Source of the DNA: an uncultured Planctomycetales bacterium
GTDB taxonomy: Bacteria > Planctomycetota > Planctomycetia > Isosphaerales > Isosphaeraceae
Assembly: GCA_903926465.1 (NCBI GenBank)
Contig: CAIYJE010000067.1
Span: 62,001-126,000, forward strand
Length of the DNA: 64,000 bases
Direction: 5' to 3'
Shown: positions 45,147 to 51,924 of the stretch, piece by piece
How the letters are laid out: each line of letters opens with the position of its first letter
Numbering within the stretch: position 1 is the stretch's first letter
Program-made: the position numbers and the translations under genes
The notes under the pieces: model-generated
The model's input: only the letters and a program-made list of their open reading frames with translations
What the model was told of the DNA's origin: nothing
The model's database searches: none

Positions 45147-46499
45147 TCAGTTCTTCGGTTTGATCAGGTGGGCGTACCGCAGCGGTTTTCCCTCGGTCCA
45201 CGGATGATAGGTATTGCAGAAGTCGATCCGGTCGCCCAGGCTCGGATGCGTTGATCGGACCAGGCGCACAAACCAGCCGGGTCTCGGAAAGCCCAGGTTT
45301 TCCCGTTGTAACGCCACAAAAGCCTGAGCCGCCGCCCCGTTGTTCTGGTTCAGTTCCAGCGTGAACCGATCGGCCTCGTGTTCCATGTGGCGGCTGTATG
45401 CGTACCCAACCGGACTGAGGACCAGGCTCAACAGTAAGCCCACGCCCATCAGCACCGGAAGCGAGGCCAGATCGTCTGGCCGGTCGAATCCCCACCGCCC
45501 ACACGAACGATGGACCAGCCACCGCGTCGCCCGATCGAGCAGCAGCAGGCCCAGGCAAACTAGAATGCTGGATAGCAAGATCCCCGACCGAACGTGATTC
45601 AGGACGTAATGTCCGATCTCATGTCCCATCACGGCCAGCACTTCGTCCTGGTCAAGCCGCTGAAGTAGCGTGTCCCAGAGCACAATCCGCTGGGTGCCAA
45701 ACAAACCCGTCACGTAGGCATTGACCGTACGTGTTTTGGTGCTCATATCCACTTCATAAACCCGATCCGTCTGGATCCCCGCGCGATTGGCAAGCTCCAA
45801 AATTCGCGATTCGAGGACTTGGTCCTTCATCGGACCAAATTGATTGAAGGCTGGGTCGATCCAGATCGGTTTCAGAAATGCGAGGGCGAGCAGCCCAGGA
45901 ACGCAGAGCGCAGCGGAAACCAGCCACCAGAATTTTGGCAGCCGTCGCATGAGTGCGTAAACGATCAGAACAACCGGCACGAACAGCAGCAGCTCAAAGC
46001 CAAGTGATTTCAACTGGTCTAGCAACCAGGCCGACCCCGTTTGGGTTGAGAGTCCATACGCGTGGGACCGCAGAAAGCCCGCATAATAGACCAGGGGTAA
46101 TTCGAGCAGCCAGGATCCTAGAAAATAGCCGGCGGCGAGCAGTGGTTTGCGTGCCCTTCCGGTTCGAAGCGTGAACCGGCACCAGCCGGCCCAGGCCCCT
46201 GTGAAAAGCCAGGCGGCCGGTATGGCCAGAGTCACCACCCGACCAACGACCCAGAGGCGGTTTCCCGTGTGGTGGTATCGCACCGCCTCAGGCGTGGGTG
46301 GAGGAACTTCCACCGACTGGGTCGGGTCTAGCTTCTCCAGGGAACCGGTTGGAATTGGATTGGCTCTTGCAAGCGGGTCTTCCGCGAACGACGGGGATGA
46401 ACCGCAGAGCAGCAACAGCAGGACCAGGGCAACGCCAACGCACTTGCCACCGAAGCCTGAGAGATGACCGGTCCAAGATCGCATGTTCGGTTCACTCAT
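45147..46499 (-). CDS. M48-family (Ste24-like) membrane metalloprotease in the Ubl operon
   Basis: 450 residues. The zinc motif HEIGH lies at 293-297 with the third ligand in EHEADRF (373-379). Hydrophobic helices flank the active site (about 19-35, 85-105, 120-140, 168-185, 190-208, 305-322, 345-365), the architecture of Ste24/HtpX-like M48 proteases. The first hydrophobic stretch could be a signal peptide (LLLLLCGSSPSFAED). The ATG (46499) overlaps the TGA of the JAB gene as ATGA. This implies coupling with the ubiquitin-like system. Its substrate is unknown. Confidence 0.92.
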   Translation of the reverse strand: MSEPNMRSWTGHLSGFGGKCVGVALVLLLLLCGSSPSFAEDPLARANPIPTGSLEKLDPTQSVEVPPPTPEAVRYHHTGNRLWVVGRVVTLAIPAAWLFTGAWAGWCRFTLRTGRARKPLLAAGYFLGSWLLELPLVYYAGFLRSHAYGLSTQTGSAWLLDQLKSLGFELLLFVPVVLIVYALMRRLPKFWWLVSAALCVPGLLALAFLKPIWIDPAFNQFGPMKDQVLESRILELANRAGIQTDRVYEVDMSTKTRTVNAYVTGLFGTQRIVLWDTLLQRLDQDEVLAVMGHEIGHYVLNHVRSGILLSSILVCLGLLLLDRATRWLVHRSCGRWGFDRPDDLASLPVLMGVGLLLSLVLSPVGYAYSRHMEHEADRFTLELNQNNGAAAQAFVALQRENLGFPRPGWFVRLVRSTHPSLGDRIDFCNTYHPWTEGKPLRYAHLIKPKN

Positions 46500-47887
46500 G
46501 GTTGGCGATGAACGATCGTTGCGGCCTGCGCTTCACCAACTGGGTCAGGCCAGGCCCCCGGTTCAGCAGCATTCTGCCAATCCGATCGACGATACCGCAG
46601 AGCCAGGATACCAAGTAGTGCGAACCCGAACGCAAGCCACCCAGAGATCGCGAGCCAGACCGGCAGTCCAGACCCTGGGTTGCCAACAGGAGCAGGGCCA
46701 GGTTCCCGCTCAGGCAGGGATTCAAGCAAACGCTTTTCTTGCTCCAGCCGGTCATAGCGGTTCTGAAGCGAAGTGAGTGCGGCGGTTTGTTGTGCCAGTT
46801 GAAGGCGAGCCTGTTTGGTGAGTTCGACCAGCCCTTCGTGTTCCAGGTCGATCTTGCTCAACTGGGTGCGCAGGGAATCGACTTGCTGGTAGGCGGCCTG
46901 GAGCTTGGCACCGACCGACTCGGCTGTTGAGCCGATTTTGACATCTTCAAGCAGGGCATTCACAACCCGTTCGCGGGCCGCCAGCATCTGGGAACTCTCG
47001 GTCGATCCGGAGGGATGTTCCCTGGCAATATTAGCAAGGGCCGTGGACTGGTCTCGAAGTTCTCTGCGGACCAGATAGAGACAACCGCCGGCAAGCATGG
47101 CCAGCACCAGGCCCAGGATCAGGCCGAGGGTCAGAAATATGGGGCCGGTGGGTGATCGGTTCTGGGCGGTTGGGGTTCCTGCTTTTGTTGAGAGCACGGC
47201 CATGAGTTCAGCCTCCAGCTCAGGTGGCAGAAAACCGCCAGCTTCGGGGTTGGGAAGATGTTCGAGTTGGTTCACGAATCTGGCGAGCGAGACTCGATGG
47301 GTGCGATCGTCGGTCAGGTGATATCCCTGCGCCTGGACCAGATGCTGCCCTTGCTGAAAGAAGACCCCGCGAGTTTGCCGGACCGGGTCCAGGACAAACG
47401 CAACCTGGAGCGGCTGGCCAAAGAAATGCTGATGCAGGAAGAGGTCGTGCCCTGAAAGGAACACGCCGAAATCTGGGTGGGTGTGGTACCAGCCCACGAT
47501 GTCAAGTTCCGGGTGTTGCTGTTCCCGCTGACGGGTCAGCGCTTCCCAGGTGTTGTGGGTGTAGGTGAAGCTTGTCTGGCTGTTCTCATAGTGCAGAGCC
47601 CTGAGGGCTCTAGAGATCAGCACAAACGGTTCGCCTGTCTCAGGATCGCAGCATTCCTTGCCAAGCAGCAGGCCGCCTAGTTCCACCGAGGTATCCGTGG
47701 TTCCGTGGCGTTCCACTTCGGCGGCTGCCGTACGGTCAAAAAAGATCGGGAGATCGGTGGAGCGAGGCGTGCCGTAGGTTGCGCAACAGAGATGAGGGTC
47801 TCGGTCGGGCCGGGTTTGCCTGACGGGCTCCCGGAACTCGAGGTTGCTGAACACGATGTCGTGATCGACATGTTCGTGATCGGTCAC
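46496..47887 (-). CDS. Membrane-anchored JAB/JAMM isopeptidase-like protein
   Basis: 463 residues from GTG 47887, which overlaps the E1 stop as GTGA. The N-terminal JAB/MPN domain (about 45-195) has an intact JAMM set: Glu69 (SVELGG), His135 and His137 (YHTHPD), Ser145 and Asp148 (SGHD). A transmembrane helix (about 249-272), a coiled coil rich in Gln/Leu/Glu (about 330-390) and a second transmembrane helix (about 409-430) follow. JAMM enzymes cleave ubiquitin-like proteins from targets or precursors. The two-TM plus coiled-coil tail is not usual for bacterial JAB domains. It fits the deconjugating enzyme of this operon, held at the membrane. Confidence 0.9.
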   Translation of the reverse strand: MTDHEHVDHDIVFSNLEFREPVRQTRPDRDPHLCCATYGTPRSTDLPIFFDRTAAAEVERHGTTDTSVELGGLLLGKECCDPETGEPFVLISRALRALHYENSQTSFTYTHNTWEALTRQREQQHPELDIVGWYHTHPDFGVFLSGHDLFLHQHFFGQPLQVAFVLDPVRQTRGVFFQQGQHLVQAQGYHLTDDRTHRVSLARFVNQLEHLPNPEAGGFLPPELEAELMAVLSTKAGTPTAQNRSPTGPIFLTLGLILGLVLAMLAGGCLYLVRRELRDQSTALANIAREHPSGSTESSQMLAARERVVNALLEDVKIGSTAESVGAKLQAAYQQVDSLRTQLSKIDLEHEGLVELTKQARLQLAQQTAALTSLQNRYDRLEQEKRLLESLPEREPGPAPVGNPGSGLPVWLAISGWLAFGFALLGILALRYRRSDWQNAAEPGAWPDPVGEAQAATIVHRQP

Positions 47888-49089
47888 GGTAAGGGGTCCG
47901 CTGGTGCAGGTTGGCCATCTTCAGCAAGCCGATAGAAGCCGGTGGAGTTCGCCCCATCGATCCGGATCACGTCTCCGGGCGGCACCCCCAGCCGACCCAA
48001 AGGATTCAAGGCGAGCTCAGAGCCTTCATCGACCTCGGAAATCTGCTCGGCTCGCCGTTCGTTTCCGCACTGGGGACAGATTGAACGGGAGTAGGCAACC
48101 CGTTGTCGAACCTCAAGCACGGGTGACCGGACCTGACAGGTCTGGCAGTCAAACGCCACCACCAGTTCCCGTTCGAGCCGGAGTTGAAGGGGGGGATCAA
48201 GCCTGGCGCTGGAGTGTTGGATTTGTTCGAAAATGGTCGAGAGTGGGGTGCGTACCCCCAAGGGTAACCAGGCGGGTTCCGGATACGTTTCATGGCTCAG
48301 GCAATCGCTCTTGAACGGAAGCTGAGTGGTGTAAAACTGGTTGCTCACTCCATTGAACACATGGGCAGATCCGGCGGCAACCGGCATTCCGTGCAGCAAC
48401 TTGAGCGCTTCTTGAACCTGGAGGCCGGCCATCATCGAGGCAATTGTCGGGGTGGTTGGTACCCGCCCCTTGAGCAGGTCGTCTCTGGGTAGCAGTGGGC
48501 AGCGATACCGCAGGTTGAGTAACTGATAATCCCGCTCGGTCATCGCGCATTCATAGCAGGCCGAATCTGGGGGAACAAAGACTTTGACCACCCCCTGTAT
48601 TTCCTGAATGCCGGCATCGATCCAGGGGGTACCGGTTTTCCAGCACTGCCGATTCACCCAGAGCCTGGCCTCTCGGTTGTCCAGGCAGCCGATCACAAGA
48701 TCGGCATCCAGAAAGGGCCCGAGCCCAACATCGGTGATGATATCCCCGAAGATCGGGAATACCTGAACATCTGGGTTCAATTCACGCGTTCTGGTGGCCG
48801 CCACCTCGGCCTTGGGTTGTCCTTCGTCGGCCGCGCGAAACAGTACCGCCCTGGAGAGGTTCGAGGCTTCGATTCTGTCGAAGTCGATGATGTGAATGGT
48901 GCCAATGCCCAGCAGCGCCAGGTTCTTGAGCACCTCGTTTCCCAGCGCGCCCGCCCCCACAACCATCACACGAGCGGCCGAAAGTCGTTCCTGTTTCCAC
49001 CAGGGAATCAGACGTAACCGGCTGTAACGATCGTCGTCGTCAATCCAGACCGATTCCGAGCTGTCTGGTACGTGGGCAGGGCTAGACAC
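47884..49089 (-). CDS. E1-like (ThiF-fold) ubiquitin-like activating enzyme
   Basis: 401 residues. Adenylation domain: nucleotide loop GAGALG (45-50), Asp in IIDFD (69-71), NLSR (77-80), DNREAR (137-142). Cysteines at CYEC (178-181) and Cys197 lie where the ThiF fold keeps a zinc and/or catalytic Cys. The C-terminal ~100 residues carry a second zinc ribbon, CQTC (315-318) and CPQC (338-341), not usual in plain ThiF proteins. It should adenylate the Ubl C-terminus and pass it to the E2 encoded upstream. Stop overlaps the JAB start. Confidence 0.92.
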   Translation of the reverse strand: MSSPAHVPDSSESVWIDDDDRYSRLRLIPWWKQERLSAARVMVVGAGALGNEVLKNLALLGIGTIHIIDFDRIEASNLSRAVLFRAADEGQPKAEVAATRTRELNPDVQVFPIFGDIITDVGLGPFLDADLVIGCLDNREARLWVNRQCWKTGTPWIDAGIQEIQGVVKVFVPPDSACYECAMTERDYQLLNLRYRCPLLPRDDLLKGRVPTTPTIASMMAGLQVQEALKLLHGMPVAAGSAHVFNGVSNQFYTTQLPFKSDCLSHETYPEPAWLPLGVRTPLSTIFEQIQHSSARLDPPLQLRLERELVVAFDCQTCQVRSPVLEVRQRVAYSRSICPQCGNERRAEQISEVDEGSELALNPLGRLGVPPGDVIRIDGANSTGFYRLAEDGQPAPADPLP

Positions 49090-49220
49090 CGTGGGTCCTG
49101 TCTGTTTCGCTTGGGAAGAAGTGGATGAGTCTGGCCTGCCTGTCCAGGTTCTGGCCCAATCAACGCCTGAAGACTTTCACTCGGTCCCGCACAAATCGGG
49201 CGTCAAGGGCTTGAGGAATG

Positions 49221-49856
49221 TCAGTCACCAATGACCAGAATATCGTCTGGCCCTGGAACGGATTGAGACTTGAGCGTGGGTTGAATGGGGGCTGGGCCAG
49301 GCAGTGTGGCGCTTGATGGAGGCAGACTCCGTGACGAATCACCGTCCAGGCGTCCGGCTGCGGCCCTGAGATCTCGCAAAGGGCGGCCATCAATGGGGTA
49401 GGTGTAGCCCGTCTGCGTGGCGCACCAGAGGGCCGCCTCGCGGTTATAAGGGCTGCGAACGTCGTAATTATAGTATCGAGCCATGTCCCAGAGCATGCCG
49501 CACAGATCATCAAGGTGCAGGCTGGGTACCCAGTGGGTTCCGTATCCTCCCAGACAGACCGTACCGATTTCCGAAATATTCGGATGAAAAACCGGTGTGA
49601 TCCAGCGGATTTCCGGCATGGATCGGGGATAGGACGCGCCCAGGCTGATCTCCACTCGCTGCGTTGTTCGGACTGAGATTCTTCCTTTTTCACGGCCCAG
49701 TGTTCTGCCGGAAAACTCAACGAGGTAGCGAGTGGGGATTGAGCCCGACGTTTTGAACTGAAGAATGGAACTCTCGGTGAGCAGTCGTTCCATGGCCGCA
49801 TGGTCGTTCTTCAGCCGGCGAATCTGAGGAGACTCATGACGATTCCAGAGCGGCAT
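49221..49856 (-). CDS. E2-like (UBC-fold) ubiquitin-conjugating protein
   Basis: 211 residues. The UBC fold is recognisable: YP..MPEIRWITPVFHPNIS with HPN at 91-93, the catalytic Cys101 in GTVCLG, Trp109-Pro111 (THWVPSL), LCGMLWDMARYYN, and SPYNREAALW at 135-144. The Pro/Ser-rich tail (170-200) is disordered. Such a complete HPN plus CLG set indicates an active E2. It lies between the Ubl and E1 genes (54 bp after Ubl, 131 bp before E1). An overlapping frame at 49160-49801 is a shadow. Confidence 0.9.
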   Translation of the reverse strand: MPLWNRHESPQIRRLKNDHAAMERLLTESSILQFKTSGSIPTRYLVEFSGRTLGREKGRISVRTTQRVEISLGASYPRSMPEIRWITPVFHPNISEIGTVCLGGYGTHWVPSLHLDDLCGMLWDMARYYNYDVRSPYNREAALWCATQTGYTYPIDGRPLRDLRAAAGRLDGDSSRSLPPSSATLPGPAPIQPTLKSQSVPGPDDILVIGD

Positions 49857-49910
49857 GGCTTTTGAAAGACCAGAAGAGGATTGGTGTTCGCTGGCAGCCG
49901 TTCTTTTTTG

Positions 49911-50216
49911 TCAGGCAGACAGGCTACCTGCAACCACTTCAGGGTACACGATCAGGTGATCGCCATCTCGCACGCCGGCTTCGATGAGTGTTTGATGTTC
50001 GATCAGACGCTTGCCCCCTTCTTTATGGTCCAGGGAGTAGCTCATCGGCTGCCCATCCGGGCTTGTGGCCGGCAAGTTCATCTTGGTGATGATGTTCGGC
50101 AAGATCCGGCTGACCGGAACCGTGAAGGCAATGACCGCCTTCACCGATTTTGCGCCAGTCTGATCAAGAAAGGTAACGTGGGTTCCCGTGCGTTCGCTTG
50201 CATCGCCCTCGGACAT
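49911..50216 (-). CDS. Ubiquitin-like protein (YukD/EsaB-type beta-grasp)
   Basis: 101 residues, with GGAGG 8 bases before ATG 50216. Beta-grasp pattern: strand THVTFLDQTG, helix VSRILPNIITKMNLP, PDGQPMSYSLDHKEGGKRL, then TLIEAGVRDGDHLIVYPEVV, the ubiquitin/YukD-like ending. The chain ends VVAGSLSA: Gly97 with a four-residue tail instead of a Gly-Gly terminus. Processing to expose Gly97 is conceivable. First gene of the E2/E1/JAB/M48 unit. By position and fold it is the modifier of the system. Confidence 0.85.
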   Translation of the reverse strand: MSEGDASERTGTHVTFLDQTGAKSVKAVIAFTVPVSRILPNIITKMNLPATSPDGQPMSYSLDHKEGGKRLIEHQTLIEAGVRDGDHLIVYPEVVAGSLSA

Positions 50217-50464: not shown

Positions 50465-51652
50465 TTAAGATTCCCGTTTTCTGCGCATAAGGCGACCCAC
50501 GCCCAGGGTGACCGTGGCCAGGGCGCACAGCAGCAGGCTGGACGGTTCAGGCGTTGGAGCAACGGCTGAGACGGCAACTGGGTCCAGAATGAATCCGCGT
50601 GTTTTCCCATTCAACAGCCCGTAGCCCACAATCTGGCCATGGTCATTGATACCAGTGGCAGATTCCAGACTCCATCCCGACAGATTACTGACGAGGGAGT
50701 TGAGGTTCACCATTCCCGAGGCGGCCGTCCAGAGAAACGCGGAGGAACCACCTCCCGACAGGCTTAGCTGGCCAACCACCCAGTCGGAATTGTTGATGCT
50801 GAGGGCCTGGCTGCTCCATCCCTTGAAGAGGGAGGTTTGCAGATCGACCATCTGCTGACCCAGGTAGGCAAACGCGTGCGATGTTCCACTGTCTGAGGCC
50901 GACCAGCCAGCCACATGGCCGTTGTCGTTCACGGCATTCCCCTGGCTCGCACCATCTTTGGTGAGTGCGCCCAGGTTCTTGAATTCCGACGCCGCTGCGG
51001 GGGTCTGGCCAGGAGAATAAAGAAAGGCCTGGGAGCCACCCTGGGGCAGAGCGGCCGACCCCGTGACCTGACCCGAGCCGTTGACGCCGAACCCCTGACT
51101 GGCTCCGCCAGGGCTGAATCCCCCAAGATTCTTGATGGTTCCCTGAAGGTCCCAGGTTACAGCGTGGTTCTGACCGTCCGCCCCTACTGCGGTGCCCGCA
51201 ATTACTCCGCCGTTTCCAACCCCCTGGGCAATTGCTGAGCCGCCACCCGCCAGGCCCGGAAGTGTTTTGGGCCCTTGGTTCGGGTCACTGTAAACGAACG
51301 CACGGTTGACCAGTCCGCCAGGGCTGTAAGATTGGGTCTGCCCCACAATCACGTTGGAATCATTGATTCCAAGCCCACGACTGGACCAGCCGCCCGTATT
51401 AAACCCTAACCCAGCCGCGGCAAGTCCGCTGCTTTGAATGGCCTGGGCCACATTACTGTAAGCGGTTGTGGATTCGCCGGTGGCTACCCGGTTGTTATTG
51501 ATTCCGAAAATCCGGGTGCTCGATCCGCCTGATGCAGGCTGGACCTCGCTGACTAGAAAATCAGCACGCACCAAACCCGCGGCCCCTGAGCAGAGGCTAG
51601 CCAGGACCACAATCGACCTGCCCAGGCGCAGGAAAGCGGCTGTACGCCTCAC
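50465..51652 (-). CDS. PEP-CTERM protein with HAF-type repeats
   Basis: 395 residues from GTG 51652, which follows GGGGGA and gives a signal peptide (MRRTAAFLRLGRSIVVLASL then CSGAAGLVRADF); an open frame extends to 51709. HAF-like repeats of about 45 residues repeat GINNSNxVVGQ/GVNGSGQVTGSA motifs (for example GINDSNVIVGQ, GVNGSGQVTG, AVNDNGHVAGW, SINNSDWVVGQ, GINDHGQIVGY). The C-terminus is a PEP-CTERM sorting signal: EPSSLLLCALATVTLGVGRL then MRRKR. Exosortase-processed, surface or matrix protein. Exosortase itself is not in the window. It is 248 bp from the Ubl gene. Confidence 0.9.
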   Translation of the reverse strand: MRRTAAFLRLGRSIVVLASLCSGAAGLVRADFLVSEVQPASGGSSTRIFGINNNRVATGESTTAYSNVAQAIQSSGLAAAGLGFNTGGWSSRGLGINDSNVIVGQTQSYSPGGLVNRAFVYSDPNQGPKTLPGLAGGGSAIAQGVGNGGVIAGTAVGADGQNHAVTWDLQGTIKNLGGFSPGGASQGFGVNGSGQVTGSAALPQGGSQAFLYSPGQTPAAASEFKNLGALTKDGASQGNAVNDNGHVAGWSASDSGTSHAFAYLGQQMVDLQTSLFKGWSSQALSINNSDWVVGQLSLSGGGSSAFLWTAASGMVNLNSLVSNLSGWSLESATGINDHGQIVGYGLLNGKTRGFILDPVAVSAVAPTPEPSSLLLCALATVTLGVGRLMRRKRES

Positions 51653-51924
51653 TCGTGTGTCCCCCAACCCATAACAGGGCCCTCCATTCAGGATCCACTG
51701 TGCATGCACGCAACAGACTTATCATAGAGTGCAGGTCCAGAGCAGGGCAACGCTCTGGGTGGCCTCAGAGGGGCAATGGCCTCACCTGAGCATGCGGGAT
51801 GTTTCAGACTGTGAACACCATAGGTGGAATTCCTGGCGATCGCTCGTGAACCGCGGCCGCTCACGGACTGGCCGGTGCCGCCCCGGGTATGCAACCGATT
51901 GGCCGATCTGGTGGATTTGCATGG

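Follow-up and report, generated by a model that had tools for sequence, protein, structure and literature searches.

We predict that the five-gene locus described here encodes the core of a ubiquitin-like (Ubl) conjugation system at the cytoplasmic membrane, a reading made from sequence to which we assign a probability of about 0.75. The window, a stretch of 64,000 nucleotides corresponding to C67:62001-126000 within a 6.9-Mb genome, carries on its minus strand the genes for a Ubl, an E2, an E1, a membrane JAMM protease and a Ste24-like M48 protease, with all five open reading frames as located (Table 1). The original prediction, made from the letters of this DNA, had proposed a membrane-tethered Ubl conjugation and deconjugation system encoded by five adjacent genes. 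The coordinates of the genes were correct and their Pfam families agree, and a Ubl conjugation and deconjugation system with a membrane-tethered JAMM protease is well supported by the catalytic residues, the gene order, the vertical inheritance of the genes and the C-terminal boundary of the Ubl.

Table 1 Features of the Ubl locus and related loci (window coordinates unless a contig or locus is named).
Feature	Position	Strand	Description
Ubl	49911..50216	-	101 aa; YukD fold, modifier; YukD PF08817 2.5e-15
Ubl Gly97, predicted mature C-terminus (..VVAG)	49926..49928	-	core-end conservation
Predicted removable Ubl tail SLSA	49914-49925	-	variable tails in relatives
E2	49221..49856	-	211 aa; UBC fold, HPN and Cys101; Pfam UQ_con 1.3e-11
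E2 catalytic Cys101 codon	49554..49556	-	sequence; Cys in 76/76
E2 C-terminal SIM-like motif DDILVIGD	49224..49247	-	acidic-flanked hydrophobic motif
E1	47884..49089	-	401 aa; adenylation domain, Cys197 crossover loop, putative UFD-like domain with zinc ribbon; ThiF 1.2e-58
E1 Cys197 codon, candidate thioester cysteine	48499..48501	-	invariant in 56 E1s; kept in paralogues
E1/JAMM 4-bp overlap	47884..47887	-	exact, from coordinates
Membrane JAMM protease	46496..47887	-	463 aa; Pfam JAB 1e-7 and Prok-JAB
JAMM/M48 4-bp overlap	46496..46499	-	exact, from coordinates
M48A Ste24/CAAX-type membrane protease	45147..46499	-	450 aa; HEIGH; PF01435 1e-33, PF16491 1.4e-17
RING orthologue in this genome, unlinked	C31:81797-82615		278 aa, RING intact; family-specific profile
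Natural Ubl-E2 fusions	L164:8301-9239, L165:9983-10921, L168:9980-10918		fused directly after VAG of Ubl

Gene order and inheritance

The genes are closely packed, with gaps of 54 bp between Ubl and E2 and 131 bp between E2 and E1, and the overlaps of 4 bp that had been noted for the last three genes amount to two junctions, E1/JAMM and JAMM/M48, both of them exact. The array is not a product of chance, since dozens of genomes repeat the same order. This genome encodes a single UBC-fold protein, one further and weaker E1-like match and two Prok-JAB matches.

The Ubl, E2, E1 and JAMM genes are a vertically inherited core set of the Isosphaeraceae. An E2 match was found in 38 of 45 genomes of the family, 37 of which (the window's own included) have a close orthologue, 51-67% identical, and the remaining one a distant paralogue only. 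A search for the same gene order in relatives, suggested together with the original prediction, found the Ubl-E2-E1-JAMM order in nearly all Isosphaeraceae: it is retained in almost all loci fetched from this family and, with insertions, in Pirellulaceae. The Ubl is the slowest-evolving gene of the set, with a mean pairwise identity of 87% against 72% for prolyl-tRNA synthetase (21-22 genomes), and the pairwise divergence of all five proteins tracks that of the synthetase (Mantel r 0.70-0.90, and 0.70-0.89 for the first four; 0 of 2000 permutations; 14 genomes for M48).

Among named relatives the closest Ubls belong to Isosphaeraceae such as Singulisphaera, Paludisphaera, Aquisphaera and Tautonia. 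Close Ubls, 69-86% identical across 80 related loci in a profile search, occur in Isosphaeraceae, in Pirellulaceae and in single metagenome-assembled genomes (MAGs) labelled Wallbacteria, Riflebacteria and Abditibacteriales. These three (L156, L176 and L130) have the same Ubl, possibly through transfer or mis-binning, and in the first two the E1 lies upstream of the Ubl. Across a sample of the phylum at least 32 of 392 genomes match, with 12 candidates per genome scored.

Predicted parts of the cascade

The modifier had been described as a YukD/EsaB-like Ubl of 101 residues, which was borne out by its YukD match. Its sequence is conserved up to ..YPE[VI]VAG and then breaks off, and a C-terminal Ala-Gly closes 80 of 81 Ubl cores. 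There is no tail beyond this point in 37 Ubls, most others have a variable tail of 1 to 21 residues and one has a tail of 68, while in three related MAGs the Ubl runs in frame into the E2. Because conservation stops at this point, the tails vary and in-frame Ubl-E2 fusions exist, proteolytic maturation is likely; the tail pattern resembles that of ubiquitin-family precursors, which points to processing by proteolysis wherever a tail exists. Lysines K23, K45 and K65 are conserved. Searched against PDB sequences, the Ubl profile found no significant chain. Two points were counted against a role in conjugation, namely that the C-terminus is AG rather than GG and that YukD of Bacillus subtilis, which has the same fold, was reported not to be conjugated (PMC1779556).

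The E1 was confirmed as a member of the ThiF family, and its AF2 model has a pLDDT of 90. Structural matches of the adenylation domain include MoeB, ThiF, UBA5 and UBA3 (Z about 30), and the UFD-bearing chains of UBA1, UBA3 and the SUMO E1 align to the model through about residue 390, as whole-chain alignments with an rmsd of about 4-8 Å. From this model we infer a minimal E1, consisting of an adenylation domain and a UFD-like domain with a zinc-ribbon insertion. The 401-residue chain has no separate catalytic-cysteine (SCCH) domain and carries there instead a short, low-confidence loop with C197, which is a candidate for the thioester cysteine. C178xxC181 and C263xxH266 form a predicted zinc site and likely bind zinc; the SUMO E1 has a zinc motif between its crossover and re-entry loops, the same layout as seen here (PMC12355090).

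In the E2, the predicted HPN motif and Cys101 were found as H91-P92-N93 and C101, and both are conserved in orthologues, with Cys, Pro and Asn present in 76 of 76 and His in 75 of 76. An Arg-Arg pair at the N-terminus is invariant, consistent with the docking of helix A to the UFD as reviewed in PMC12355090. At the other end, after a variable linker, an acidic-flanked hydrophobic motif (forms such as ILFIE, IVFLD and VMFID; DDILVIGD here) closes 69 of 77 E2 tails against 0.21 expected from shuffled tails, a figure that is descriptive and not a test, as the pattern was defined after the tails had been inspected; the tails of JAMM, E1 and M48, which serve as a control, carry it in 0 of 79. In sequence this tail is akin to a SUMO-interacting motif (SIM) and is a candidate binding element. 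An AF2 model of the natural Ubl-E2 fusion of L165 was confident for the E2 domain, which UBC structures match with Z about 13; the tail and the Ubl (with only three rows) were of low confidence and uninformative on docking. A conserved SIM-like stretch, for example GIAIVDVG, is also seen immediately before the RING in the RING proteins of L062, L051 and L056 and in L215:1501-2337.

All four JAMM residues named in the original prediction (E69, H135, H137 and D148) are present and conserved in orthologues, as is S145, and the two transmembrane (TM) segments that had been noticed lie at 245-275 and 407-431. The protein is ordered as an N-terminal MPN domain, TM1, a region with a coiled-coil look and TM2, and the solved chains nearest to its JAMM domain are Rpn11 and CSN5. 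The membrane topology of this protein and of the RING protein described below is read from hydropathy only.

The operon had been called complete, a description that calls for revision: the RING gene of this genome lies on another contig. In many Isosphaeraceae, Prok-RING_1 genes stand immediately upstream of the Ubl, and in Pirellulaceae one to three RING copies follow the operon. The proteins encoded upstream of the Ubl begin with a hydrophobic segment, continue with a DUF3137-like region and carry the RING at their C-terminal end. Pfam Prok-RING_1 missed the gene of this genome and a family-specific profile recovered it; the RING had no match in four g18 genomes without the system. Judged by its sequence, this membrane RING protein is a candidate for the missing E3. 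Upstream of the Ubl, where the RING gene stands in many relatives, the window encodes a protein of the DUF3466 family that matches PEP-CTERM weakly (50465-51709); L063 (G004), whose RING gene is likewise unlinked, has this neighbour too.

Relatives add further parts to the set. Pirellulaceae operons often include a small JAMM protein that lacks the membrane portion, and often a second E2, which has its catalytic Cys replaced in 23 of 23 cases and usually bears the SIM-like motif twice; in sequence it is like the eukaryotic UEV proteins. This Cys-less E2 and the small JAMM are seen in the Pirellulaceae-type loci L125, L129 and L132-L179. Some Isosphaeraceae have a second, divergent paralogous Ubl operon (L044:2491-10329 and L048), encoding a YukD-like Ubl, an E1, a membrane JAMM, FHA-TM and RING-TM proteins, a RING-TM-trypsin-like peptidase and a zinc-ribbon E2. 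The Ubl of L044 is fused to a zinc ribbon and a TM segment, so that its release would require a cut after TAG.

In the predicted pathway, the JAMM protease would trim the variable tail and expose ..VAG-COOH, after which the E1 would adenylate Gly97 of the Ubl, probably form a thioester through Cys197 and pass the Ubl to Cys101 of the E2, which would be docked by the UFD-like domain of the E1. The RING protein could then steer transfer onto lysines of membrane or membrane-proximal proteins, and JAMM would take the tag off again. Through its SIM-like tail the E2 may retain the Ubl or its conjugates non-covalently. In Isosphaeraceae the Ste24-like M48 protease, often encoded alongside, may act on membrane proteins that carry the tag, though as an optional component.

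The M48 protease and competing readings

The HEIGH motif predicted for the M48 protease is found as H293-E294-x-x-H297 and, together with E373, is conserved in orthologues. The protein combines the catalytic domain with a CAAX-protease N-terminal domain (Ste24p match 2.1e-35), and its nearest solved relatives are Ste24 and ZMPSTE24; these M48A proteases share both domains with it, but the enzyme described here is encoded next to a Ubl system. It is a frequent, optional and family-specific neighbour of that system. Among the 32 Isosphaeraceae genomes having both genes, M48 lies beside JAMM in 24 (in 4 of which no E2 was found or it lies on a different contig) and elsewhere in 8, some of these being fragmented assemblies. 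The orthologue is absent from 8 genomes, 3 of them incomplete assemblies; five high-quality genomes (G011 and four g20 genomes) keep the system without M48, and three g18 genomes have M48 without the system. No M48 gene was found in the Ubl flanks fetched outside Isosphaeraceae. In G010 the JAMM-M48 pair is displaced jointly, away from Ubl-E2-E1.

The original idea of a coupled membrane protease therefore stands only in part: the JAMM neighbourhood and the joint move in G010 favour it, and the genomes in which M48 lies elsewhere, is absent or occurs without the system do not. That M48 receives the targets of the Ubl, as was also proposed, is possible. Ste24/ZMPSTE24 proteases clear clogged translocons, and a more specific reading makes M48 an integral effector: JAMM and M48 would be one unit, and the system would hand Ubl-tagged proteins, whether of the membrane or stalled in a translocon, over to the protease in a bacterial ERAD-like route. 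The 4-bp overlap with JAMM, the frequent linkage, the pair in G010, the closeness to the Ste24/ZMPSTE24 structures and the pairing of RING with a peptidase domain in the paralogous system all fit this reading, which we nevertheless hold to be doubtful given the unlinked, missing and system-free cases listed above and the Ubl flanks free of M48 outside the family. Its full form would be ERAD-like quality control, in which the RING E3 in the membrane attaches the YukD-type Ubl to proteins that reside there or are stalled in translocons, using the E2 that holds the Ubl by its SIM-like tail and, in Pirellulaceae, the UEV-like cofactor, while the membrane-bound, Rpn11-like JAMM recycles the tag and the Ste24-like protease removes the substrate; this whole chain we consider unlikely.

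Other readings concern the function of the core itself. One takes the locus for a mobile operon of the Bil/Bub/6A-MBL kind that defends against phage, and is favoured by matches of the E1 to the PADLOC E1-E2 and BilD models, made via the ThiF domain, and by the patchy occurrence in the wider phylum. Dedicated PADLOC or NCBIfam models for the Ubl or the E2 were not found, Ubl, E2 and M48 were without a PADLOC match (weak evidence, as it is the lack of a model match), and no NCBIfam defence model scored above cut-off; we rate this reading as improbable because the system belongs to the core of the Isosphaeraceae and is passed on vertically there. A sulfur-carrier system (ThiS/MoaD/Urm1-like) in place of protein conjugation was also weighed, as the adenylation domain of the E1 is structurally near MoeB and ThiF and sulfur carriers can be processed by JAMM enzymes. 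It is rated very improbable because of the E2, with its near-invariant HPN and invariant Cys, and the RING partner; the Ubl, moreover, lacks GG, and the core has no recognised sulfur-metabolism partner. We give hardly any credence to the suggestion that Ubl, E2 and E1 aid type VII-like secretion machinery, the role that YukD has in Bacillota: the Ubl is YukD-like and has a weak EccD match, but no EssC/EccC-type (FtsK-like) ATPase or WXG100 gene was recognised among the immediate neighbours (ORF list, Pfam), and Bacillota YukD operons as described name no E1 or E2 (PMC1779556).

Comparison with known systems

Bacterial Ubl operons are usually taken as sporadic or as phage defence, whereas the conjugation system predicted here is inherited vertically across a family, and this inheritance, with a full set of parts, suggests a housekeeping role. 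Burroughs, Iyer and Aravind reportedly described operons with a YukD-type Ubl, E1, E2, JAB and RING in 2011. Ubiquitin-type operons of planctomycetes were already known, and the present locus is a variant of the YukD-type Ubl conjugation operons. It shares with them the YukD-family Ubl, E2, E1, JAMM and Prok-RING_1, all of which are linked in the paralogous operon of L044 and L048, but differs in having an unlinked RING, a Ste24-like protease in the operon and the standing of a vertically inherited family core; related planctomycete operons are mentioned in PMC4197634, which describes such operons as sporadic in occurrence and frequently lacking from near relatives. What is new is the AG boundary of the Ubl with its fusions, the predicted adenylation/UFD-like architecture of the E1, the membrane RING candidate E3, the SIM-like end of the E2 and the Cys-less, UEV-like E2 of Pirellulaceae. 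Cultured Singulisphaera, Paludisphaera, Tautonia and Aquisphaera offer a way to study early uses of ubiquitin-type signalling.

The Bil and Bub systems, which are tied to immune-type operons and, in the case of Bub, often stand beside the regulators CapW, CapH/P and CapK/S (PMC13373217), have the logic of E1, E2, Ubl and JAMM in common with this locus, but here the Ubl and E2 are without a PADLOC match and inheritance is vertical. The archaeal ubiquitin operon of the Caldiarchaeum type is a eukaryote-type set with an Rpn11-related JAMM (PMC4197634); an operon-like eukaryote-type set is common to both, and the JAMM described here is likewise nearest to Rpn11 and CSN5. Ours differs in its YukD-type modifier ending in AG, its two-TM JAMM and its membrane-anchored, unlinked E3 candidate.

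The logical parts of a eukaryotic cascade are all present, including a membrane RING protein and a membrane eraser, and their sequences suggest a eukaryotic-like Ubl cascade. The system resembles the SUMO and NEDD8 cascades in a putative UFD-like domain of the E1, a probable zinc site that lies between the crossover loop and the re-entry loop, a SIM-like motif and, in relatives, a UEV-like E2. In contrast to these cascades, the E1 is single-chain and minimal, without a separate catalytic-cysteine domain, and maturation of the modifier would be carried out by JAMM and not by a cysteine protease.
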